DNA of 64,000 bases from Roseibium album. Its GTDB lineage: Bacteria; Pseudomonadota; Alphaproteobacteria; Rhizobiales; Stappiaceae. The notes under the pieces were generated by a model. That model saw nothing but the letters and a program-made list of their open reading frames with translations. It had not been told where the DNA came from and did no database searches. Shown here piece by piece: positions 2,833-24,776 of this stretch. Every line of letters starts with the position of its first letter. Within the stretch, counting starts at the first letter, position 1. Made by a program: the position numbers and the translations under genes. The stretch spans positions 310,001 to 374,000 of the forward strand of contig NZ_CXWE01000004.1 of assembly GCF_001404515.1 (NCBI RefSeq), given 5' to 3'.

Positions 2833-4296
2833 ATGGACTATTCCGACAGGTCCGGCGCCGGTCCCATCGCCGACCGTTTTGCACTCATGGATGCAACAGA
2901 ACAGGCGAACCTGGTCCAAAGTGGCGAGGCAACCAGTCTGGAACTTGTTGAGGCGGCGATCGGGCGGATTGCCGTGTTGAATCCGAAAATCAATGCAATC
3001 GCGTGCTCGAATTTCGATCTGGCGCGGCAGCAGGCCAAATCCGTTACCGGAAAAGAGCCCTTCTCCGGTGTTCCCACCCTTATCAAGGATCTGCTTCCTT
3101 ATCCCGGGCACACAGCTGGTTTCGGATCTCGCCTACTGGACGGAGCACCGGCACTCACCAGCTCCGACTATGCGGACACCCTTCAGGCAAGCGGCCTGAT
3201 TGCATTGGGAAAAAGCACCGTCTCGGAATTCGGACTTCTTGGAACAACCGAAACACTTGCCAAAGGTGCGACACGGAACCCTTGGGACATCACGTTGTCT
3301 CCGGGAGGGTCGTCGGGCGGTGCGGTTGCGGCGGTCGCCGCAGGCATGGTTCCGATAGCACATGCATCCGATGGCGGAGGCTCGATCCGGGGCCCCTCTT
3401 CTTTCTGCGGCCTCTTCGGCTTCAAACCAGGTCGCAACAGAACGGTCTCAAACGGTGTTCCAGCCGAGATGCCAACAGCCGCGCTCCTGGCCGAACACTG
3501 CGTAAGCCGCTCCGTTCGAGACAGCGCCCGATGGCTGCAAATGACTGAAAATCGGGATCTTTCGACCAGACTACCGTCACTGGAACACCTGCGATCGTCC
3601 TTTCCGAAAAATGTCCGCATCGGATTTTATCACAATGACAGCCTGGGTCTGTCCCCGACGCCGGAGGTGGAAGCAGCACTACATGAAACCGCCCTGCTTT
3701 GCGAAACAATCGGCTGCGATGTTTTCGAGATCAAGGCGCCGTGTTTCGATCCCGAGACGACTGTTGACGCATTCTTTGACCTGACGGGATTGATGCTATC
3801 AGGTGTGTTCGCTCAAATTCGCAACATGATGGGCAACGCCTATGACGAGGATGGGCTGGAGCCCTATACATTGGAAATTGCCCGGCGCGCTAGTGATCTG
3901 GCGCCTGCAGATATCGAAATGGCACAAACAGTGTTGGCAAAAAACGCAACAAACGCAGAACGCTCGATGCAACAATGCGACGTTATTCTGAGCCCCACGG
4001 TACCCTTCGAAGCCTTTCCGCTTGGCCGATATGGTCCGGAAACTGATGTCAAAGTCCTGCAGGCTTTCACCGCAAGACTTGCTGGATACACATTTGTCTC
4101 TTCCCTGACTGGCTGGCCGGCGATGACCGTTCCCCTTCACTGGACTGACAAAGGGCTGCCTGTCGGCAGTCATTTCACAGCGCCATCCGGTAAGGATCCG
4201 CTCCTTTTTTCTCTGGCCTATCAGCTCGAACAGGCTCGGCCCTGGAAGCACCGTCTTGATGAACTGACGAAAGATCTCTTATGCCACAACGCCTGA
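2833..4296 (+). CDS. Amidase signature family hydrolase
   Basis: A 487-residue amidase, normal length for the family, which hydrolyses carboxamide bonds through a Ser-cisSer-Lys triad. All three residues are visible: K85 (PTLIKDLLPYPG), cis-Ser S160 in SPGGSSGGAVAA, and nucleophile S184 in SDGGGSIRGPSS. The substrate cannot be read from sequence; similarity in style is to 6-aminohexanoate cyclic dimer hydrolase-like amidases rather than GatA, since no gatB/gatC lies nearby. A TetR gene overlaps its 3' end by 16 bp and an inverted repeat precedes the start, so the pair is probably a substrate-inducible, self-regulated unit. Confidence 0.9.
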   Translation: MDYSDRSGAGPIADRFALMDATEQANLVQSGEATSLELVEAAIGRIAVLNPKINAIACSNFDLARQQAKSVTGKEPFSGVPTLIKDLLPYPGHTAGFGSRLLDGAPALTSSDYADTLQASGLIALGKSTVSEFGLLGTTETLAKGATRNPWDITLSPGGSSGGAVAAVAAGMVPIAHASDGGGSIRGPSSFCGLFGFKPGRNRTVSNGVPAEMPTAALLAEHCVSRSVRDSARWLQMTENRDLSTRLPSLEHLRSSFPKNVRIGFYHNDSLGLSPTPEVEAALHETALLCETIGCDVFEIKAPCFDPETTVDAFFDLTGLMLSGVFAQIRNMMGNAYDEDGLEPYTLEIARRASDLAPADIEMAQTVLAKNATNAERSMQQCDVILSPTVPFEAFPLGRYGPETDVKVLQAFTARLAGYTFVSSLTGWPAMTVPLHWTDKGLPVGSHFTAPSGKDPLLFSLAYQLEQARPWKHRLDELTKDLLCHNA

Positions 4297-5697: not shown

Positions 5698-6042
5698 TCA
5701 CTCGTTTGGCCGAACGGTCTCGGCCAATGCGTCGATTTTGGTATCAGCGCAGGGGCGATATCCTGCCGCATATGCAGCTTTTGCCAATAAATGGGCCGAA
5801 ATTGGGGCTGTCAGCAGGAAGAAGACGACACCGGCAATAGCGCGTGTCACAACGGAAAGGTCGCCGGCCTCCACAGCCAGCGCAAGCAGCATGAGGCCCG
5901 AGCCGAGTGTGCCGGCCTTTGATGCGGCATGTGTTCGCATGTACACGTCCTTCAGCCGGACGAGGCCGAGCGAGGCGACAAAGGCAAAACATGCACCTGT
6001 GATCAGCATCAGACCGGTTACGATATCAACGATCGCACTCAT
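5698..6042 (-). CDS. mnhG: Monovalent cation/H+ antiporter subunit G
   Basis: A 114-residue membrane protein with the MnhG/MrpG/PhaG pattern: three membrane helices and the conserved segment [21 protein letters not shown]. It is the last subunit of the Mrp complex, a multi-subunit Na+(K+)/H+ antiporter of the inner membrane needed for pH and salt tolerance. Its ATG overlaps the mnhF stop by 4 bp (ATGA), as expected for a stoichiometric operon. Confidence 0.92.
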
Positions 6043-6395
6043 TGGCCTGCCTCCCTGCGTTTGATGCTTTCCTCGACCTCTTCCATGATGGTTTCGTCAC
6101 CCGCCATTCCCCGGTTGAGGATGAAACGTGCAAACGCCACCGTTGCAAGGAAGCCGACGAGGCCCAGCGTGATGGCAATATCGATATAGAGATAGATTCC
6201 CGTGGAAACGCCGATTGCGGCAATGAAGCCGATACCGACGGCAACAAGCATGTCCAGCGCAACGACCCTGTCAGGCAACCCCGGTCCTTTGACTGTCCTG
6301 TAAACGATCACCATGAAGGCGACAGTCAGAATTCCAAGCGAAATCTTGACTGCAATGCCCAGGAACTGAGACGCAAACAACTCAAATGGGGTCAT
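6039..6395 (-). CDS. mnhF: Monovalent cation/H+ antiporter subunit F
   Basis: A 118-residue protein with three hydrophobic helices and the MrpF motif [19 protein letters not shown]. It overlaps both neighbours by 4 bp. It belongs to the seven-subunit Mrp antiporter; the small subunits are required for complex assembly. Confidence 0.92.
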
Positions 6396-6868
6396 CTGAA
6401 TGCCTCCATGATCTTGCGCTCAAATCCGTTCTTGATGTCATCGATCGTTGCCTGCGGATCCGGAACGTCAATGCAGTGGATGAAGAGCGTCTTGCGATCC
6501 TCCGATACATCCACCGACAATGTGCCGGGCGTCAAGGTAATGAGATTTGCAAGCATTGTGATTTCGAAATCCGTGTCGACAGTCAACGGGAGAGCAATGA
6601 TGCCCGGTTCAAGCTCGATTTTTGGCCTGAGCACGATCAACGCGACCCTCCAGGCCGACAGGACCAGTTCCCGTACGAAGGTTACGGCCAGCCCGACCGA
6701 TTTTCCGAACCGCCGAAAATACGCCGACGTGCCCACTTGCTCCCGGATCAGATAGAGCGCCCCTGACCCAAGCACAAATCCGAAAGCGAGATTGACCTCC
6801 GAAAAACTGCCTGTAACAGCTCCCCAGGCCAGCGCCATGAGAATGTTGATGAGAAAGAGGCTCGTCAT
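6392..6868 (-). CDS. mnhE: Monovalent cation/H+ antiporter subunit E
   Basis: A 158-residue MrpE-type protein: two N-terminal membrane helices, then a soluble part with [19 protein letters not shown], the family's most conserved segment. The gene overlaps mnhD and mnhF by 4 bp each. It is part of the inner-membrane Mrp complex. Confidence 0.92.
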
Positions 6869-17481: not shown

Positions 17482-18723
17482 ATGTCCGGTCACCCCGTGT
17501 CAGATCCTTATGTTCAAGACGGGCCCTATGCCTGGTTCCGTCTCGCGATCTCAATTCTTTTGAGCACCGTAGGCGGTGCCGGAATGTGGGTGGTCGTGAT
17601 CGTGCTTCCGGACGTTCAGACGGATTTCGGTGTTGACCGGGCCGGTGCGTCGCTTCCCTACACGGCAACAATGGTCGGTTTTGCCGTTGGAAACTATATT
17701 CTCGGGCGATTTGTCGACAGGTTCGGCATCGTTCCACCCGTCATCGCGTCTGCTCTGTTTTTGGGGGCGGGTTTTGCACTTGCCGCCGTTTCTCCGAATA
17801 TCCTGCTGTTTACGGTGGCCCAGGGCGTATTGATCGGCCTCGGAACAGCGGCAACGTTTGGCCCGCTCGTGGCCGACGTCTCGCACTGGTTCCTGAAACG
17901 CAGGGGACTTGCGGTAGCCTGCGCGGCAAGCGGCAACTATCTTGCGGGGGTTCTCTGGCCATCCTTCATTAAATGGAGCCTTGTCAGCAACGACTGGCGA
18001 GAAACCTACCTGTTGATTGGTGCGCTTTGTGTGGTGCTGATGGTCCCGCTGGCGCTGGCCTTGCGCCGCCCGCCACCCGCGTCCGCCCTGAGCGCCCTGC
18101 CCTCCGGCAACACTTTCGGCGGTCAGCCGAGCGGTCTCTCTCCGACCGCGCTGCAGTTCCTGCTTGTGGTCGCCGGTCTTGGTTGCTGCGTGGCAATGTC
18201 CATGCCGCAAGTGCATATCGTCGCCTATTGCGTGGACCTTGGATACGGAATTGCGCCTGGCGCCGACATGATTGCCCTGATGACAGGGGCCGGTGTCGTC
18301 AGTCGCCTTTTGTCGGGATATCTCGCCGACAAGATCGGTGGTGTGTGGACACTTCTGATCGGGTCGGTCCTGCAATGCGCGGCACTCTTCCTCTACATTC
18401 CATTCAACGGGCTCGCGTCGCTTTACCTTGTGTCGCTGATCTTTGGCCTGTCTCAGGGCGGCATCGTTCCCAGCTATGCGGTCATCGTGCGGGAATATCT
18501 GCCCGCGCGCGAAGCCGGGCAGCGTGTCGGACTTGTCATGATGTCAACGATCCTCGGCATGGCCCTGGGTGGCTGGATGTCCGGTCTGATCTATGACCTG
18601 ACCGGTTCCTACCAGGCAGCATTCCTCAATGGTATCGCCTGGAATTTCCTCAACATGGCGATCATGGTCTTCATCCTGTTCAGCGGCCGCCGCTCCCGGC
18701 CCGCGATCGCAACAGGAATATGA
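17482..18723 (+). CDS. MFS transporter
   Basis: A 413-residue major facilitator with 12 predicted helices and the MFS motif between helices 2 and 3 (GNYILGRFVDRFG) and a matching one between helices 8 and 9 (SRLLSGYLADKIGG). The layout (WMSGLIYDLTGSYQAAF near the end) is that of the monocarboxylate/oxalate-formate antiporter-like branch, but the substrate is unknown. Its 3' end overlaps the convergent ABC permease gene by 44 bp. Confidence 0.88.
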   Translation: MSGHPVSDPYVQDGPYAWFRLAISILLSTVGGAGMWVVVIVLPDVQTDFGVDRAGASLPYTATMVGFAVGNYILGRFVDRFGIVPPVIASALFLGAGFALAAVSPNILLFTVAQGVLIGLGTAATFGPLVADVSHWFLKRRGLAVACAASGNYLAGVLWPSFIKWSLVSNDWRETYLLIGALCVVLMVPLALALRRPPPASALSALPSGNTFGGQPSGLSPTALQFLLVVAGLGCCVAMSMPQVHIVAYCVDLGYGIAPGADMIALMTGAGVVSRLLSGYLADKIGGVWTLLIGSVLQCAALFLYIPFNGLASLYLVSLIFGLSQGGIVPSYAVIVREYLPAREAGQRVGLVMMSTILGMALGGWMSGLIYDLTGSYQAAFLNGIAWNFLNMAIMVFILFSGRRSRPAIATGI

Positions 18724-19771
18724 AGAACACTCCGCCGATCAGGCCGGTCACGATGCCGATCGGCATGTCTTCCGGTGACATGAGCGTCCGTGCCAGGATA
18801 TCGGCCCAGATGAGGAATATCGCCCCCAAAAGCAGGCTGGCAGGCAGAACACGCCTGTAGCTTCCACCCACAAGAAATCGCGCGATATGCGGGATCATGA
18901 GCCCGACGAATCCGATGATGCCCGAAAAGGCAACCATCACGCCGGTGATCAAGGCGCCGACCACGAACACGACCAGCCGGAACCGCGCCACGGGGATGCC
19001 GAGCGTGGACGCGGTTTCGTCTCCGATGGTCATCGCATTGAGGTCTGCCGCCTTCGCCAGAAGATAGGGGACAGACAGCACGAGTATGCCGAGAGGAAAC
19101 AACAGGTGGTTCCACTGCGCCAGCCCAAGTCCGCCCAGCATCCAGAACACAACCGTATGTGTCGCGCGCGGATCTCCCATGAAAATCATGATGTTTGCCA
19201 GGGACATGATGATGAAGGAAACGGCGACACCTGCCAGAACCAGTCTGTCGGCGCTTGTTGCGGAGGCAAAATGCGTAACCCCGAGCACGATGAGCGTTGC
19301 GACGAGCGCGCCCGCGAATGCCATCAGAGGAACCGTCAGCAGCCCCAGGAACAGTCCCGTGTGCAAGAGAGCCAGGATCGCCCCTGCCGCACCTCCGGAC
19401 GAAATACCGAGCAGGTGCGGGTCCGCGAGCGGATTACGGGTGACCGATTGCAGCGCAGCACCGACAATAGCAAGGCCCGCACCGACAAAACCGGCCAGCA
19501 ATGTGCGCGGAAGCCGGATGTCCCAGACAATTGCCTCTCTTCCCCTGGACCAGTCGATTTCGACGGCGCCGGGCAACAGTTTGTTGGCAACGACCCCGAA
19601 CACCGTACTGGCCGGGACCGAAATGGCCCCCACCGAGACGGCCACGACCACGGAAATGATCAGCACAAGCCCGCCGGTCATCAGCATGAGGCCGAACCCC
19701 CAGCTTGATGGCGGCGAACTGCTTTTCTGCACGCTGTCCCTCGATATTTCCGCGGTCGGTCGCTGCAACAA
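18680..19771 (-). CDS. FecCD family ABC transporter permease
   Basis: A 363-residue inner-membrane permease of the BtuC/FecCD family with about ten helices and the hallmarks RLPRTLLAGFVGAGLAIVGAALQ, NPLADPHLLGISSGGA and GIIGFVGLMIPHIARFLVG. It starts with TTG at 19771, preceded by GGGGAGAG that overlaps the stop of the binding-protein gene three nt away. Members import B12, haem, siderophores or metal chelates; the cobalamin riboswitch at the head of this operon points to a corrinoid, cobalt or related ligand. It is the last gene of the operon. Confidence 0.93.
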   Translation of the reverse strand: MLQRPTAEISRDSVQKSSSPPSSWGFGLMLMTGGLVLIISVVVAVSVGAISVPASTVFGVVANKLLPGAVEIDWSRGREAIVWDIRLPRTLLAGFVGAGLAIVGAALQSVTRNPLADPHLLGISSGGAAGAILALLHTGLFLGLLTVPLMAFAGALVATLIVLGVTHFASATSADRLVLAGVAVSFIIMSLANIMIFMGDPRATHTVVFWMLGGLGLAQWNHLLFPLGILVLSVPYLLAKAADLNAMTIGDETASTLGIPVARFRLVVFVVGALITGVMVAFSGIIGFVGLMIPHIARFLVGGSYRRVLPASLLLGAIFLIWADILARTLMSPEDMPIGIVTGLIGGVFFIFLLRSRAGSGGR

Positions 19772-19774
19772 GGT

Positions 19775-20710
19775 TTACTCTCCCCAGAAGGCTTCTGCCA
19801 GTTTCTTGATAGCTTTGATGTTGCGCGGACCAGGTGTCGCCTCGACATATTCGAGCGTAACGAACCGGTCGTTCCTGACGGCGTCGATTTCAGCCAATGC
19901 AGGATTCTGCATCATGAAATCTCTCTTCTGCTCAGCCGTCACGTTTCCGTAGTTTACGATAACGATGAATTCCGGGTCCTTTTCGACCACGGTTTCCCAG
20001 TCGATCTTGGCCCAGCTCTTTTCGAAATCGTCAAGTACATTGACACCCCCCGCAGCTTCAATGAGTGCCGTTGGCATGGCAAAACGCCCTGCGGTGAACG
20101 GTTTATCTTCACCACTATCATAGACAAATATTTTCAGAGGCTTATCGCCGGGTCTTAAAGAAGATTTATAGCTATCGAGTTCGGCCTTGTAACCGGCGAC
20201 CAGATCATGTGCCTGATCTTCGACACCGAAGATCTTACCCAGATTGATCAGGTCATCATACATATCCGCCATCGACACTTTCGGTTTTTCACCGATGTGG
20301 ATGCACGATTCGGTCAGTTCGTAGACCTGAATGCCGAAGGGCTCGAGCGTTTCCGGGGTCACCTCTCCACCAACCTTCATGCCGTAGTTCCAGCCGGCGA
20401 AATAGAAGTCCGCATCAGCGCCAATCAGGACTTCCTTGGTTGGATACTTTGCGGAAAGTTCCGTTAGTTCCGATACGCCGTCACGCATTTCCTCATCGAG
20501 CGTTTTCCATCCGGAAATGCCGGTATAGCCAACCATATGATCGCGGAGGCCGAGAACGAGCATCATTTCGGTGAGGTTGACGTCATTGGAAACGGCCGCC
20601 TTTGGCGGAGCGTCGAATGTCACTTCGCGATCGCAGCTTTTTACCGTGGTCTGTGCCAGCGCAGATCCTGCAAAAAGGGTGGTCGCGAGGCCGATTGCCA
20701 AACGTTTCAT
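19775..20710 (-). CDS. ABC transporter substrate-binding protein (BtuF/FepB type)
   Basis: A 311-residue periplasmic binding protein. The signal peptide MKRLAIGLATTLFAGSALA is followed by the class III fold seen with FecCD permeases (single long helix, PTALIEAAGGVNVLDDFEKSWAKIDWE, DPEFIVIVNYG). C-terminal PGPRNIKAIKKLAEAFWGE is typical. It is encoded between the ATPase and the permease. Ligand unknown; the riboswitch suggests a B12-related compound or cobalt. Confidence 0.9.
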   Translation of the reverse strand: MKRLAIGLATTLFAGSALAQTTVKSCDREVTFDAPPKAAVSNDVNLTEMMLVLGLRDHMVGYTGISGWKTLDEEMRDGVSELTELSAKYPTKEVLIGADADFYFAGWNYGMKVGGEVTPETLEPFGIQVYELTESCIHIGEKPKVSMADMYDDLINLGKIFGVEDQAHDLVAGYKAELDSYKSSLRPGDKPLKIFVYDSGEDKPFTAGRFAMPTALIEAAGGVNVLDDFEKSWAKIDWETVVEKDPEFIVIVNYGNVTAEQKRDFMMQNPALAEIDAVRNDRFVTLEYVEATPGPRNIKAIKKLAEAFWGE

Positions 20711-20725
20711 GGAATTCTCCGGTAC

Positions 20726-21499
20726 TTAAAGATGAAAGGTAAGATGTGCTTGTTCGCTCGGCGCAAGTTGTTCCAGTCGCGCCTGCACGGAATAGGCTTT
20801 TTCGATGTGGTCCGGTGTCAGAACGTCTTCCGGTTCTCCGAACGCGACCGCCGCCCCTTTGTGCAGCAACAGGACGCGGTCGCAGACGCGGCCGGCAAGG
20901 TTCAGATCGTGCAGGCTTGTGACGATAGTGATGTTGAGGCTGGATATCAGCGCAACGATTTCCAGCTGGTGGCGAATGTCCAGGTGGTTGGTCGGCTCAT
21001 CCAGAATGAGCAATTCGGGCTCCTGGGCAAGTGCACGGGCAACCATCACCCGCTGGCGCTCGCCACCGGAAAGCGTTCCGAAGGATCGCGCGGCGAGCGG
21101 CAGCAATCCCATCCGGTCCAGGGCACCTTCGGTAATTTCGAAGTCGTCGCTGCCATTTCCGGCGAACCCCGTCCCGTGCGGACGGCGGCCCAGTGCGACG
21201 ATCTCCCGGACGGTCAATGCAAAATCAGTGGGCTGCTCCTGCAGGACGGCAGCAACTTTTTTGGCGGTCGATCTCGCGGACATTTTCCAGATATCCTGAC
21301 CGTCGAGAAAGATCGCACCGGTACTCGGCCTGTGAAAACGATAAAGTAGACGCAGAAGCGTGGATTTGCCCGCACCGTTGGCACCGGCCAGCCCCAGAAC
21401 CTTGCCTGCGGCGAGATCGAAACTGACGGGATGCAGGATGGTATTGCCCTGCCCCGCACGCCATCCGGCCTGCCTGGCCGAAAGGGCCGCGCCACTCAT
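20726..21499 (-). CDS. ABC transporter ATP-binding protein (FepC/BtuD type)
   Basis: A 257-residue ATPase with Walker A GANGAGKST, signature LSGGERQRVMVARAL, Walker B LLILDEPTNHLD and switch His in SLHDLNLAG. It energises the FecCD permease encoded two genes downstream. The ATG at 21499 overlaps the DUF1636 stop (ATGA), so the two are translationally coupled; the longer frame upstream would only be antisense-like filler inside the DUF1636 gene. Confidence 0.94.
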   Translation of the reverse strand: MSGAALSARQAGWRAGQGNTILHPVSFDLAAGKVLGLAGANGAGKSTLLRLLYRFHRPSTGAIFLDGQDIWKMSARSTAKKVAAVLQEQPTDFALTVREIVALGRRPHGTGFAGNGSDDFEITEGALDRMGLLPLAARSFGTLSGGERQRVMVARALAQEPELLILDEPTNHLDIRHQLEIVALISSLNITIVTSLHDLNLAGRVCDRVLLLHKGAAVAFGEPEDVLTPDHIEKAYSVQARLEQLAPSEQAHLTFHL

Positions 21500-21900
21500 G
21501 AAACGGCTGCCGTATCTGCTTCGGTCACGCTCATTGCGGCCGGTATGCGCGCGAGTGCCGATCGCCGGAGTTTGCCGGGACGGTCCGCAGAGTTGCACCA
21601 GCCATTCGCCAGAACCATGTACTGCCGGGCAAAGGCAACCAGATCATCAATATCCGTCTCCGGATCGATGTCACCGAAAAGATAAGTCGCCTTTTCATTG
21701 GCTCTGTAGGCAACCGTGCAGGGCCGTGAGCATCCTGCCATGCACGCGATACCTGAGACTTCAAAGTCGTTTCCGGCAACCGGTAAGCCGCAGGTCAAGG
21801 CCTCCCGCAGCTTGGCGATCAGTTCAAAACCCGGCCGAAAGTCACTGTCATTGTGCCTGCAGGACGTACAGACGAATATCTTGTGCGTTTCACGACTCAT
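21496..21900 (-). CDS. DUF1636 family protein, thioredoxin-like [2Fe-2S] ferredoxin-type fold
   Basis: A 134-residue protein with four cysteines in the DUF1636 (COG5469) arrangement: CTSCRHNDSD near the N-terminus and CMAGCSRPCTVAYR in the middle. The pattern resembles thioredoxin-like 2Fe-2S ferredoxins, so metal or cluster binding is likely; function is unproven. It is the first well-supported gene after the cobalamin riboswitch and is coupled to the ABC ATPase. The ATG at 21900 fits the family N-terminus; a frame extension to 21996 exists but overlaps a different possible small ORF. Confidence 0.85.
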   Translation of the reverse strand: MSRETHKIFVCTSCRHNDSDFRPGFELIAKLREALTCGLPVAGNDFEVSGIACMAGCSRPCTVAYRANEKATYLFGDIDPETDIDDLVAFARQYMVLANGWCNSADRPGKLRRSALARIPAAMSVTEADTAAVS

Positions 21901-22171
21901 CTGCCATCCCCGACGTTTCCACGTGTTTGTCACCGCCCGAATCCGAGCTGCCCGATTGTTCATGATCAGACCGCCGATCCGGAATCTGCACCTCATTGAA
22001 AAGGCTATGTTGTAACTTATGTAATGTTATTACATTACGTTCACTTTTCGATGCAAGCGGAAATCTGCAGCCATTAGGGCACATGGCTCTGGCTGCGCGT
22101 TCGCCCAAAGCACCGGCCTTGGCTAGAAAAACGGGTATGAAATCAGCATTTTCGTTTCTGGTCCGGTTCAT
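21890..22171 (-). CDS. Possible small protein in the riboswitch leader (unrecognised)
   Basis: A 93-codon frame begins at an ATG at 22171 with a strong Shine-Dalgarno (GGAGGGCGAA just before it) and ends 11 bp inside the DUF1636 gene, spacing suited to translational coupling. The product has one CPNGC motif, a basic middle and a Ser/Gly/Asp-rich end; no family is recognised. Against it: a Zur-like palindrome lies inside the frame, which would fit non-coding leader DNA better. I keep it as a low-confidence gene. Confidence 0.3.
   Translation of the reverse strand: MNRTRNENADFIPVFLAKAGALGERAARAMCPNGCRFPLASKSERNVITLHKLQHSLFNEVQIPDRRSDHEQSGSSDSGGDKHVETSGMADES
22021..22038. promoter_or_regulatory. 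Zur-like palindrome
   Basis: GTAATGTTATTACATTAC: 16 of 18 positions are symmetric, and it contains the perfect dyad ATGTAAT/ATTACAT (22019-22035). From memory it resembles alphaproteobacterial Zur boxes (GTAATGTnATAACATTAC-like). It lies about 120 bp before the DUF1636 start and downstream of the riboswitch, so it could control an internal promoter. Confidence 0.5.
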
Positions 22172-22295
22172 TTCGCCCTCCGCGATTACACGGGGCTTGC
22201 AGGAACCGAAGGTCTAACTCTGTCAGCGATCGCTGTTTTGCCATGCCATCCGCTCCTCCGGAACACCCCGTCCGGGTTGAAGTTTGTGATGAAAT

Positions 22296-22472
22296 GGCAG
22301 GTCTCCTGACTTGCGGGTCATGGCTTGCCTGATCCTTCCCGGGGTCTCCCCAGTGGCGCTTTCAGGTTTGCTCACCGCTCACAGTTGCGGGGGCAGTCAC
22401 GGACTTGGTGCCTTTTGGCTACGCCGCACCGTGTTCCCTTTTAATCCCGATCCGGCTCCGGATACGAGAACC
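22296..22472 (-). ncRNA. Cobalamin riboswitch
   Basis: Read on the minus strand from about 22472, the RNA has the conserved AdoCbl aptamer elements in order: AAAGGGAACACGGTG, GGCACC, the invariant CTGCCCCCGCAACTGT, GCCACTGGGGA, GGGAAGG, and the B12 box GTCAGGAGACCTGCC ending at 22296. It lies ahead of the DUF1636/ABC importer operon, about 400 nt before the DUF1636 start. Cobalamin binding would be expected to lower expression of the importer. I do not see an unambiguous intrinsic terminator immediately after it. Confidence 0.93.
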
Positions 22473-22996
22473 ATAAGACCATTGATTGGCTGAAATTGAG
22501 GAAGCTGTCAATCGACAAACCGACCTGTGTCTTCCAGGCAGCGACATATGGCAATTTCAGCTGGTTTGAACCATTTCAGTTACCTTGTTGCCGCGGTCCA
22601 ACTCGACAAGAGTCCAAAGAACCAACAGTGCCGTGCAGATGTAGACGGGAGGGCTTGAGCGGGCTTCGTTGGAACAAGACTTCTCGATCATGTGGAGCCA
22701 CAATCAAATGTCAGGACCTCAAGACAGGAATGGTTTCGACCAGCCGCCCAAACGATAGTCCAGCACCTCATGCATGACCGGATCATCGCCACTGAAAAAG
22801 CGTGAATGCGCGAGCTCGCGAACACTGGTTGCGGTCAATTCAAGACAGTATATGCGGTATCCAGTCCTTCCCCTTGAAATTTATAGCGCCAAAGAAAAAG
22901 AAAATGGGCATTGATACCAAGAATAATCCGAATAACCTTCTACTCACCGGGCAGACTTCCAAATTGATTGCATAAAAGAGAGACCGCCACCCGAAG
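22473..22996. other. Intergenic, riboswitch promoter region
   Basis: No gene supported. The leftward promoter of the riboswitch operon and the rightward promoter of the DUF534 binding-protein gene must lie here. No strong dyad was seen. Confidence 0.4.
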
Positions 22997-23959
22997 ATGA
23001 AAAACCTGATTACTCGTTGTATGATCTTGGTTGCAGTGGTTCTTACCCCGGTATTCGGTGAGGCAGCCGATGACACCAAATCCATATTGATGATCACTTG
23101 GCGTGGCCTCACGACTGCCGAAGAAGGGTTTGTCGAAAAACTGGGCGAACTTGGCATCGATGCCGACATTGATCACTTTGACGCAAACCGTGACCAGACA
23201 GAACTGGCCGGGTTTTTACGGGAAAATCTCGACGTTCTGAAAACACGGGACCTGATCTACACCTTCGGAACAACCGTCACGCAGACAGTCAATAATTTCG
23301 ACATCGCAAATGTGCCCCGTGTGTTCAATATCGTGGCCGACCCGGTCGGTGTCGGACTGGTCGGGTCCCTGGACTGCCCGCCCTCCGGCATGACCGGTGC
23401 CAAGATGTCCCTGTCACCGGACGAGAACCTGGAGTTGTTTCGAAAAATTCACCCTGTCCAAACCATGGCGATCCTGTTTGATCCGCGGGAAAACAACGCT
23501 GTCTCAGAGGCCGACCACCTCACGATTGCAGCAGAAAAACTCGGCATCACTCCCAAGCGGCTTCGCTTTGCACCGGATGCGGACGAAACCGATCTTCAGC
23601 TTTCATCTCTGATCCCGCAGCTTGAAGGCGTCGACGCGCTTTACGTCACCGCTTCATCTTCGTTCATCGCACATTCCGGGATCCTCAAGGAGATCATTCC
23701 GGACGACCTCGTCAGCATCGGATCGTCAACGGCCTATATCGGCGAAGGAATAACGCTCGCCTTTGGTACAGAGTATCGTGAGCGAGGAGAGGCAGCAGCG
23801 GAATTGGCCGCGAAAATTCTGCTGGACGATGTTCCGCCAAACAAGTTGCCGATCGACGAAATCGACGCTGCTGACGCTATCCTCTTCGTCAATGCAGACA
23901 GCAAGGCTGCGTCAACGCTTCGCCTTGAGAATGCGACCAACACTGTGGTTTACAAGTAG
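22997..23959 (+). CDS. ABC substrate-binding protein, DUF534/TrpX-like, orphan
   Basis: A 320-residue exported protein. A signal peptide (cleavage near GEAAD) precedes a two-lobed binding fold with DUF534 features: TFGTTVTQTV, RVFNIVADPVGVGLV and FGTEYRERGEAAAELAAKIL. DUF534 proteins usually act with a permease and ATPase for tryptophan/tyrosine-like or nucleoside ligands, but none lies beside this gene. It may be a stand-alone sensor partner; a two-component pair is encoded about 1.3 kb downstream. Confidence 0.8.
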   Translation: MKNLITRCMILVAVVLTPVFGEAADDTKSILMITWRGLTTAEEGFVEKLGELGIDADIDHFDANRDQTELAGFLRENLDVLKTRDLIYTFGTTVTQTVNNFDIANVPRVFNIVADPVGVGLVGSLDCPPSGMTGAKMSLSPDENLELFRKIHPVQTMAILFDPRENNAVSEADHLTIAAEKLGITPKRLRFAPDADETDLQLSSLIPQLEGVDALYVTASSSFIAHSGILKEIIPDDLVSIGSSTAYIGEGITLAFGTEYRERGEAAAELAAKILLDDVPPNKLPIDEIDAADAILFVNADSKAASTLRLENATNTVVYK

Positions 23960-24041
23960 GTTCGCCTGTCTTGCAGACACATTGAAGGCCCTAGGACAAC
24001 AAACATATACAGACCCTGTCAACAGCTGATAGCTTTTCGCG

Positions 24042-24776
24042 ATGCCGCATCTATTTCTCAACAGGCCCAGAAATTTCGATCTGCTGGCCAAGCACGAAAC
24101 CGTACGCAAGGACCTTGTCTGGGAAAGTCTCAACGCCGCGCTCTACAAGACCGGCGGGGTGATTTTCATCATCGGCAGCGTACTGTTTTTTCCAGCCTTC
24201 GCGAAATACGCAGATGTCGGCGCCTGGTCCTTCATCGCGGGTTCCGTGCTCTATCTCGTAGTCACAGGACACGACCTTCTGGAAGTTTTCAACGCGGGTC
24301 GCCACCGTAAAGGTGAACCCTCTGTCTGGGACAGACTGGAAACCTTGGCTGCACTCACATACGTCACTGGAACGATCCTTTTCATTGTCGGAAGTGTCTG
24401 TTTCCTGAAACGGTATGATGCCACCGAGGCGGGCGCGTACTGTTTTGTTGTCGGCAGTCTCCTGTTTGTGGTCGGTGCGGTTGTGAATGTCCTGCAAATC
24501 GTCACTGCCGGATCTCTGATCAAGCTTCAATTGATGAACCTGACAGCCTTGTCCTTTGTGACCGGATCGGTGCTGTTTGCCGTTGCGTCTGTGCCTTATC
24601 TCTGGACGATTGAAAGCAAATCCGATGCGCGTGAACTTTTTTCTTATCTGGCTTTTTTGTATCTGACCGGCAGCATCCTTTTCCTGCTGGGCGGGGTCTT
24701 CAACTATTGGCGTGCGCTCCTGGTCATTCGTGGCGTCGCGCGCTCGCAAAAGCTGAAACCCGCGCCGGCGAAATGA
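24042..24776 (+). CDS. YrhK-like membrane protein with three internal repeats
   Basis: A 244-residue membrane protein built of three similar units of about 70 residues, each two helices long: GGVIFIIGSVLFF, TGTILFIVGSVCF and TGSVLFAVASVPY mark the first helix of each, and AGSVLYLVV, VGSLLFVVGA and TGSILFLLGG the second. The unit resembles the YrhK domain. Function is unknown. It follows the DUF534 gene on the same strand after 82 bp. The repeat structure suggests growth by internal duplication. Confidence 0.75.
   Translation: MPHLFLNRPRNFDLLAKHETVRKDLVWESLNAALYKTGGVIFIIGSVLFFPAFAKYADVGAWSFIAGSVLYLVVTGHDLLEVFNAGRHRKGEPSVWDRLETLAALTYVTGTILFIVGSVCFLKRYDATEAGAYCFVVGSLLFVVGAVVNVLQIVTAGSLIKLQLMNLTALSFVTGSVLFAVASVPYLWTIESKSDARELFSYLAFLYLTGSILFLLGGVFNYWRALLVIRGVARSQKLKPAPAK

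Follow-up and report, generated by a model that had tools for sequence, protein, structure and literature searches.

A FecCD-family importer operon of Roseibium album with a cobalamin riboswitch and a probable Zur operator

Both cobalamin riboswitches and Zur operators have been well described. Among the closest described systems, CbtJKL of Sinorhizobium meliloti is, like the operon reported here, an ATP-binding cassette (ABC) importer under a cobalamin riboswitch (PMC7689651, PMC4207669, PMC12239276). PA2911–PA2914 of Pseudomonas aeruginosa were described by Pederick et al. (2015) as Zur-controlled, with chelated zinc or cobalamin proposed as substrate and with cobalt raised in a znuA mutant; the genes are 8–9-fold up in that mutant, and zinc or cobalt was proposed as well (PMC4542158). 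In Paracoccus denitrificans, a COG0523 gene (pden1338) and an ABC importer of uncertain substrate (pden1341–1344) are under Zur (PMC5387054). Our literature search on Zur together with cobalamin or B12 riboswitches and cobalt, which did not extend to supplements or the 2011 CbtJKL paper, yielded no importer described as being under the two controls, and the available text of PMC2770081, PMC6103462, PMC5387054, and PMC7689651 reports no dual riboswitch/Zur control of this kind. Here, we describe a minus-strand operon in a stretch of 64,000 nucleotides (nt) from Roseibium album (contig NZ_CXWE01000004.1, positions 310,001 to 374,000; hereafter the window) that encodes a FecCD-family importer together with a DUF1636 protein and has both a cobalamin riboswitch and a probable Zur operator in its leader.

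We favour, with moderate confidence, the reading that this is a two-input importer operon for a cobalt/zinc complex that is induced by shortage of either B12 or zinc, which suggests that one uptake route of this marine bacterium serves its cobalt and its zinc needs. The elements that carry this reading are the following.

22279..22490, minus strand: cobalamin riboswitch aptamer, RF00174 (Rfam 128.2 bits, E 6.8e-32, full model 1-189)
22021..22038, minus strand: predicted Zur-type operator, GTAATGTAATAACATTAC, with exact palindrome arms, conserved and equal to the aztA box over 15 bases
21496..21900, minus strand: DUF1636 protein with a thioredoxin-like ferredoxin fold and invariant C11, C14, C53, and C57 (PF07845, 102.9 bits)
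20726..21499, minus strand: ABC ATPase (PF00005), with an ATGA overlap with DUF1636
19775..20710, minus strand: periplasmic substrate-binding protein (SBP), Peripla_BP_2 (PF01497; nearest solved folds 4mlz and 4n01)
18680..19771, minus strand: FecCD-family permease (PF01032, 305.5 bits)

The original prediction for this DNA had placed a cobalamin aptamer at the head of four genes in the order DUF1636, ATPase, binding protein, and FecCD permease. The covariance-model search that we ran confirms the aptamer, its 128.2 bits comparing with an RF00174 gathering score of 31.5; the interval originally given, 21496–22472, left the first 18 nt of the aptamer outside. Pfam families and coordinates agree with the proposed gene order, and the ATGA overlap is borne out by the ATPase start at 21499 and the DUF1636 end at 21496. 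With permease, Peripla_BP_2 SBP, and ATPase all matched, the set for a FecCD-family importer with a cluster A-II SBP is complete.

The aptamer is separated from the DUF1636 start by 378 nt that contain a hairpin bearing a Shine-Dalgarno (SD) sequence, two small overlapping open reading frames (ORF1 and ORF2), and the Zur-type box; hairpin, ORFs, and box were all absent from the original prediction. Bases 1–15 of the box are identical (15/15) to the box of pden1595 (aztA) in P. denitrificans, which Neupane et al. (2017, Table 7) give as GTAATGTAATAACAT preceding aztA, and in that study about 5 micromolar of purified Zur sufficed to shift target promoters, whereas the negative control required 20 micromolar (PMC5387054). 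Similar boxes were found in the 6.9-Mb genome of the strain itself, where a search allowing up to two mismatches returned five places including the window operon. One of these boxes, with no mismatch, is where a COG0523 GTPase gene starts, and one with two mismatches lies 57 nt upstream of znuC-znuB-zur, with a divergent gene 106 nt away from it; a slightly looser pattern finds a three-mismatch site 54 nt upstream of znuA. Two further two-mismatch box-like sites, at C4:12275 and C5:93507, have no obvious neighbouring zinc gene. This genome has three Fur-family genes, and the one behind znuCB (PF01475, 35 bits) is taken as Zur, judged by its position. Because its first 15 bases match the aztA box, whose promoter Zur shifted, and because similar boxes precede the znu-zur and COG0523 genes of the same genome, we read the window box as a probable Zur operator that would place the importer under zinc control. 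Of the original reading as a B12-regulated importer, the riboswitch control therefore stands, whereas a regulation purely by B12 or cobalt is incomplete given the conserved Zur-type box and the zinc genes beside relatives of the operon; judged from these sequences, zinc appears to be a cue equally strong as B12 or cobalt.

A PF07845 search of 87 family genomes gave 64 matches in 50 of them, including that of the window; the other 63 loci were fetched, some of them on contigs that stop early. By tblastn, 45 loci in this set are linked to FecCD genes and 19 are not. The riboswitch precedes DUF1636 in 44 of the 45 linked loci, and 23 have the order riboswitch, box (zero or one mismatch), gene; these 23 all belong to the genus of the window, where they make up 23 of 29 loci. 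Five others, all from a second genus, carry a box with two or three mismatches before the riboswitch, and one linked locus has neither element. In a third genus, a zinc gene, either COG0523 (7) or ZnuA (4), lies on the same strand upstream of the riboswitch in all 11 FecCD loci, at a distance of 60–81 nt in ten of them and 332 nt in L071 (L and G numbers are our labels for loci and genomes). Some zinc link is thus present in 41 of the 45 loci, a count that includes L044, in which a COG0523 gene with its own box lies 5 kb downstream, and L064 (2900–10268, in G067), where COG0523, a WD40-like protein, DUF1636, and importer genes stand together in a row without a riboswitch; G067 additionally carries a dual-control copy, L068.

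No box with zero or one mismatch lies upstream of any of the 19 DUF1636 loci that are not FecCD-linked, and the best match was five mismatches both after dinucleotide shuffling of the 45 upstream regions (180 shuffles) and in 2.2-kb regions at 35 other cobalamin riboswitches drawn from the 150 best-scoring, none of which (0/35) had a match at two or fewer. On the shuffle and control-riboswitch scans, we rejected a chance origin of the box. The combination is also not restricted to one gene set: L143 (G040) has riboswitch, box (one mismatch), ATPase, SBP, and permease in the absence of DUF1636, and L144 (G031) has riboswitch, box (two mismatches), an SBP_bac_5 protein, two ATPases, and a BPD-type permease, again with no DUF1636. 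These layouts indicate that a riboswitch plus a box can precede different importers. L144 (7946–3129) has another box, which is located some 240 nt upstream of its riboswitch and faces a large divergent gene.

Similar combinations were found well beyond the family. A search of 398 genomes of the phylum with the SBP gave 35 matches at E 1e-30 or better, our own genome included, and 20 neighbourhoods were taken, all of which were analysed with Rfam and scanned for boxes at up to three mismatches, counting sites that precede the operon or its first gene. Five neighbourhoods have both controls (L248, L250, L251, L252, and L253), four only a riboswitch (L246, matching RF01482, L249, L254, and L261), and five only a box (L244 and L255–L258); in L248 (three mismatches) and L250 the box is within the first gene when its frame is extended as far as possible, though before the part that is conserved. 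All six loci scanned for a TonB receptor (L242, L244, L246, L248, L249, and L254) have the receptor gene in first position. Plasmids carry such operons as well. On a Gemmobacter plasmid, the operon, preceded by a riboswitch and a two-mismatch box, lies between znu/COG0523/DUF1826 and cob genes, and a Sinorhizobium medicae plasmid has one box-like site with two mismatches. Among 1,275 plasmid records with an SBP match, 577 are from Klebsiella, some only of a distant, 24% kind, and none of five distant plasmid loci (L136 and L138–L141) has a box within three mismatches. The S. meliloti plasmid pEm1132b, typed as conjugative, has a riboswitch-DUF1636-importer operon beside copper-resistance genes (L128, 4103–12348).

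On a tree of 85 SBPs, the distant proteins, those of the kind found in the pSymB locus L127, form a separate clade, with starred branches. Six layout labels, which derive from our own scans, require 13 changes on this tree compared with a mean of 50.8 after shuffling; the box-after layout accounts for two and the box-before layout for three. Because of these layout changes, B12 control and probable zinc control appear to have been joined on the importer more than once.

Alignment of the 23 loci with the order of the window revealed further conserved elements in the leader.

22253..22275, minus strand: expression platform, a hairpin CCGGA/TCCGG with loop CGGGG followed by the Shine-Dalgarno sequence GGAGGAG (23-locus alignment)
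22143..22244, minus strand: ORF1, a 33-amino-acid leader ORF, MAKQRSLTELDLRFLQAPCNRGGRNEPDQKRKC (translation)
22051..22056, minus strand: TTGCAT, a possible -35 element of an internal promoter P2 (TTG adjoining the box in 20 of 23 aligned loci)
21890..22171, minus strand: ORF2, a 93-amino-acid leader ORF that overlaps ORF1 and whose stop overlaps the DUF1636 start (frame open in 23 of 23 loci)

Loop CGGGG of the hairpin and loop CCCCCG of the aptamer have complementary sequences, and we take their pairing to be a kissing loop; C-GGGGTG is kept in the hairpin loop of all 23 loci. The closing pair is A-T in nine, G-C in 12, and other in two (L045 and L046); the SD sequence is GGAGGAG or a close variant, GGAGG being absent in L045 and altered in L099. 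The frame of ORF1 is open in all 23 loci and retains an RGG motif. That of ORF2 ends in an overlap with a possible DUF1636 start in 22 and continues in frame into DUF1636 in L048. In 17 gap-free sequences, differences in the ERAARAM segment of ORF2 number 504, 410, and 956 at codon positions 1, 2, and 3; this part is probably coding because its variation is mostly at third positions. The first 13 codons, with 874, 792, and 877 differences, show no third-position excess. The box, which lies within ORF2 and there encodes NVITL, is among the most constant parts of the leader, and folding of the leader as a single sequence was unremarkable (z-score -1.62). Leader peptides like ORF1 and ORF2 also follow a different cobalamin riboswitch that has no Zur box (L167, 1012–1760, L170, L172, L173, and L175); the next long ORF in L167 presumably resembles a membrane antiporter subunit. 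We thus discarded the idea that ORF1 and ORF2 are inseparable from zinc control, the same leaders following box-free riboswitches and being unrecognised in the box-bearing L143 and L144. The five genomes with these loci each have two riboswitches about 3.2 kb apart. Upstream of the operon in the window, an ABC_sub_bind protein and a YrhK-like protein are encoded on the plus strand (22997–24776), with no link seen.

The DUF1636 protein is the only one in its genome, and its closest named relatives are from Labrenzia sp. DG1229 (93%) and Roseibium species. The suggestion that it is a thioredoxin-fold ferredoxin holds up well: along with the PF07845 match, none of C11, C14, C53, and C57 varies among 21 sequences, C61 being nearly invariant, and its AlphaFold model (predicted local distance difference test score 80.1) matches 9JN8 at Z 15.3 (root-mean-square deviation 2.2, 109 aligned) and Aquifex aeolicus 1M2A at Z 10.1. 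By modelled fold it is a thioredoxin-like ferredoxin, and the four invariant cysteines would be able to hold a cluster, putatively of [2Fe-2S] type. A relation between DUF1636 and thioredoxin-like ferredoxins, with three of four cluster cysteines, was proposed in a 2015 study (PMC4520260). Our literature search found DUF1636 in two papers and COG5469 in no paper, and among the papers listed none named 9JN8 or ORF378. DUF1636 was found in 68 of 385 genomes in a class-level search, in which loci were compared by tblastn with the window proteins, and its neighbours in our sample are FecCD importers, an SBP_bac_5-type importer (L053), and, convergently, CbtB-CbtA (L100), so that cobalt handling may be the common thread of its contexts. 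In L100 (4900–7400), the convergent gene is a second DUF1636 paralogue, facing riboswitch-CbtB-CbtA and a 174-amino-acid His-rich protein without a Pfam family. In L123 of Jannaschia marina (6001–6402), the cysteine loop VACMAGCDRPCT is duplicated in tandem. Ferric-siderophore reductases offer an analogy for reductive cobalt release, and a role of this kind on a Co(III) complex is what we would propose for DUF1636.

The computed elements, namely aptamer, box sequence, conservation, gene families, and fold, lead us to infer the following course of events, in which Zur binding, P2 activity, OR logic, translational coupling, substrate, and DUF1636 function are the conditional parts. A presumed promoter upstream of 22490 would give a transcript starting with the cobalamin riboswitch; at scarce B12 the SD sequence behind the aptamer would be exposed and ORF1 translated, and translation would pass along the overlapping chain ORF1-ORF2-DUF1636-ATPase. 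At scarce zinc, the putative internal promoter P2, overlapped by the Zur operator at 22038–22021, would start transcription beyond the riboswitch, and the importer would then be produced regardless of the B12 level. Periplasmic protein, FecCD permease, and ATPase would import a metal complex that supplies cobalt for B12 and, under zinc shortage, delivers zinc or cobalt substituting for zinc. In the cytosol, DUF1636 would act on the arriving metal; its likeliest task would be the release of Co(II) through reduction of a Co(III) complex, with a role as thiol metal acceptor as the alternative. More tentatively, we envisage a general OR gate in which lack of B12 or lack of zinc turns on one importer so that cobalt can replace zinc, a joining that would have arisen repeatedly in proteobacteria in different geometries (with the box following the riboswitch, with the box preceding it, or with zinc genes read through) and in which riboswitch and box could be fitted to unrelated importers (FecCD and SBP_bac_5).

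Several findings weigh against a two-input importer. Within the family, the riboswitch of 16 of the 45 FecCD-linked loci is unaccompanied by any box within 1.2 kb, and in the DNA covered no zinc link was seen at four of these (L055, on a 4.9-kb contig, L058, L060, and L062); beyond it, six of the 20 neighbourhoods (L242, L243, L245, L247, L259, and L260) have neither control. Weak riboswitches are unrepresented among the 35 controls, a sigma-70 consensus scan listed no promoter at P2, and there is no TonB receptor gene among the operon genes from 22490 to 18680. That one regulator serves the box here and the box before znu/zur is likewise inferred from sequence. DUF1636 is absent from L143, L250, and the box-only relatives and would thus be inessential to the importer. 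The closest system that has been characterised, CbtJKL, is a distant relative, the proteins of L127 being only 26% (SBP), 40%, and 41% identical to those of the window, with the SBP in a separate clade.

We consider it possible, though rather unlikely, that the operon encodes a cobalt-only importer like CbtJKL, which zinc starvation would induce for cobalt-for-zinc use in enzymes and which would carry no zinc. CbtJKL, under an adenosylcobalamin riboswitch, supplies cobalt in S. meliloti (PMC7689651, PMC4207669), a DUF1636 paralogue adjoins CbtB-CbtA, and in L127, which fits cbtJKL, two Zur-like boxes (two and three mismatches) flank TTGACG just upstream of the riboswitch (3440–3485). However, L244, L255–L258, and a Klebsiella copy with zigA have no cobalamin riboswitch or DUF1636 in the stretch examined. 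The box-only relatives disfavour a substrate used for B12 alone, just as the cobalamin riboswitch disfavours one serving zinc alone, and the TonB receptors beside relatives favour a complex or corrinoid over a free ion. A corrinoid substrate, cobalamin or cobinamide, would fit the riboswitch and the BtuB-BtuCDF-like layout of L246, L248, L249, and L254, in which a TonB receptor comes first under the riboswitch, and cobalamin is one option given by Pederick et al. for PA2911–2914 (PMC4542158). Such an importer, placed under zinc control since B12-dependent MetH spares the zinc of MetE, nevertheless seems improbable. The BtuF, BtuC, and BtuD models are all under their NCBIfam cut-offs (30.2 vs 234, 214.4 vs 334, and 126.4 vs 281). 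MetH is known for its zinc-saving role, but no MetE match was found in our genome, in a search that found MetE in 10 of 14 genomes, over the cut-off in seven. The other two of its three cobalamin riboswitches head a CbiM-family gene (PF01891) and cobU, cobW, and cobN, so that none of the three heads a receptor gene. Because MetE was not found and no receptor stands behind these riboswitches, cobalamin import to spare zinc through replacement of MetE by MetH is unlikely, and cobalamin is the less likely substrate here.

We give still less credence to the possibility that the palindrome is no working Zur operator, the box being a coincidence or ORF2 coding sequence in front of a plain B12-regulated cobalt importer. 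Its position within a frame that is open in 23 loci and the lack of a listed consensus promoter at the box would agree with this, but the box is retained in L143 and L144, where ORF1 and ORF2 are unrecognised, belongs to the parts of the leader that vary least, is carried elsewhere relative to the riboswitch by relatives, and was not equalled in 180 shuffles. Least probable of all, to the point that we give it little weight, is an iron-siderophore or haem importer under a Fur-family repressor. The FecCD fold and the Peripla_BP_2 class are common to siderophore and haem importers; yet all haem and siderophore models compared are under their cut-offs, in a comparison that for the ATPase covers the best 25 of 189 models and in which the closest haem model is one for the ATPase (216.5 vs 261), a cobalamin riboswitch is present in 44 of 45 FecCD-linked loci, and the box equals a Zur box. 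Labels for haem, siderophore, or F420-0 import were thus rejected, the putative F420-0 importer models (TIGR03868/3869/3873) also scoring below curated cut-offs (179 vs 392.4, 260 vs 437.35, and 267.9 vs 372.4).

If our preferred reading of a cobalt/zinc importer with two inputs is correct, the operon would provide a direct genetic handle on cobalt/zinc exchange in bacteria when one of them runs short, a question left open by Pederick et al. for PA2911–2914 (PMC4542158). DUF1636 would gain a testable place in cobalt handling, and zinc regulation might extend to cbtJKL of S. meliloti.

The operon thus shares features with several known systems and is identical to none of them. L127, which we take to be cbtJKL from its replicon, gene order, and riboswitch, has the order SBP-permease-ATPase and no DUF1636, whereas the window operon has the order ATPase-SBP-permease; on the assumption that L127 is cbtJKL, orthology to CbtJKL was rejected based on 26–41% identity, the other gene order, and the separate clade. 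A Klebsiella pneumoniae plasmid importer (NZ_CP132948.1) is closer in that its SBP is 47% identical, its genes are ordered ATPase-SBP-permease, and a zigA zinc chaperone gene lies downstream; it differs in having neither riboswitch nor DUF1636, and it is preceded by a shortened COG0523 gene (L129, 4596–5009; PF02492, first 96 of 180 positions) and a Zur-like palindrome. DUF1636 finds a homologue, at 31% identity, in the Rhodobacter capsulatus thioredoxin-like ferredoxin 9JN8 (ORF378). The P. denitrificans Zur regulon members pden1338 (COG0523) and pden1341–1344 share the operator sequence, although pden1341–1344 form a Ni/dipeptide-type importer for which the available text mentions no riboswitch (PMC5387054). 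Finally, PA2911–PA2914 have, as in our operon, the order ATPase, cluster A-II SBP, and B12-type permease and a Zur site, but include a TonB receptor, and in the available description, on which this likeness rests, neither riboswitch nor DUF1636 is mentioned (PMC4542158). By analogy, the findings on PA2911–2914 would fit a shared cobalt/zinc complex.

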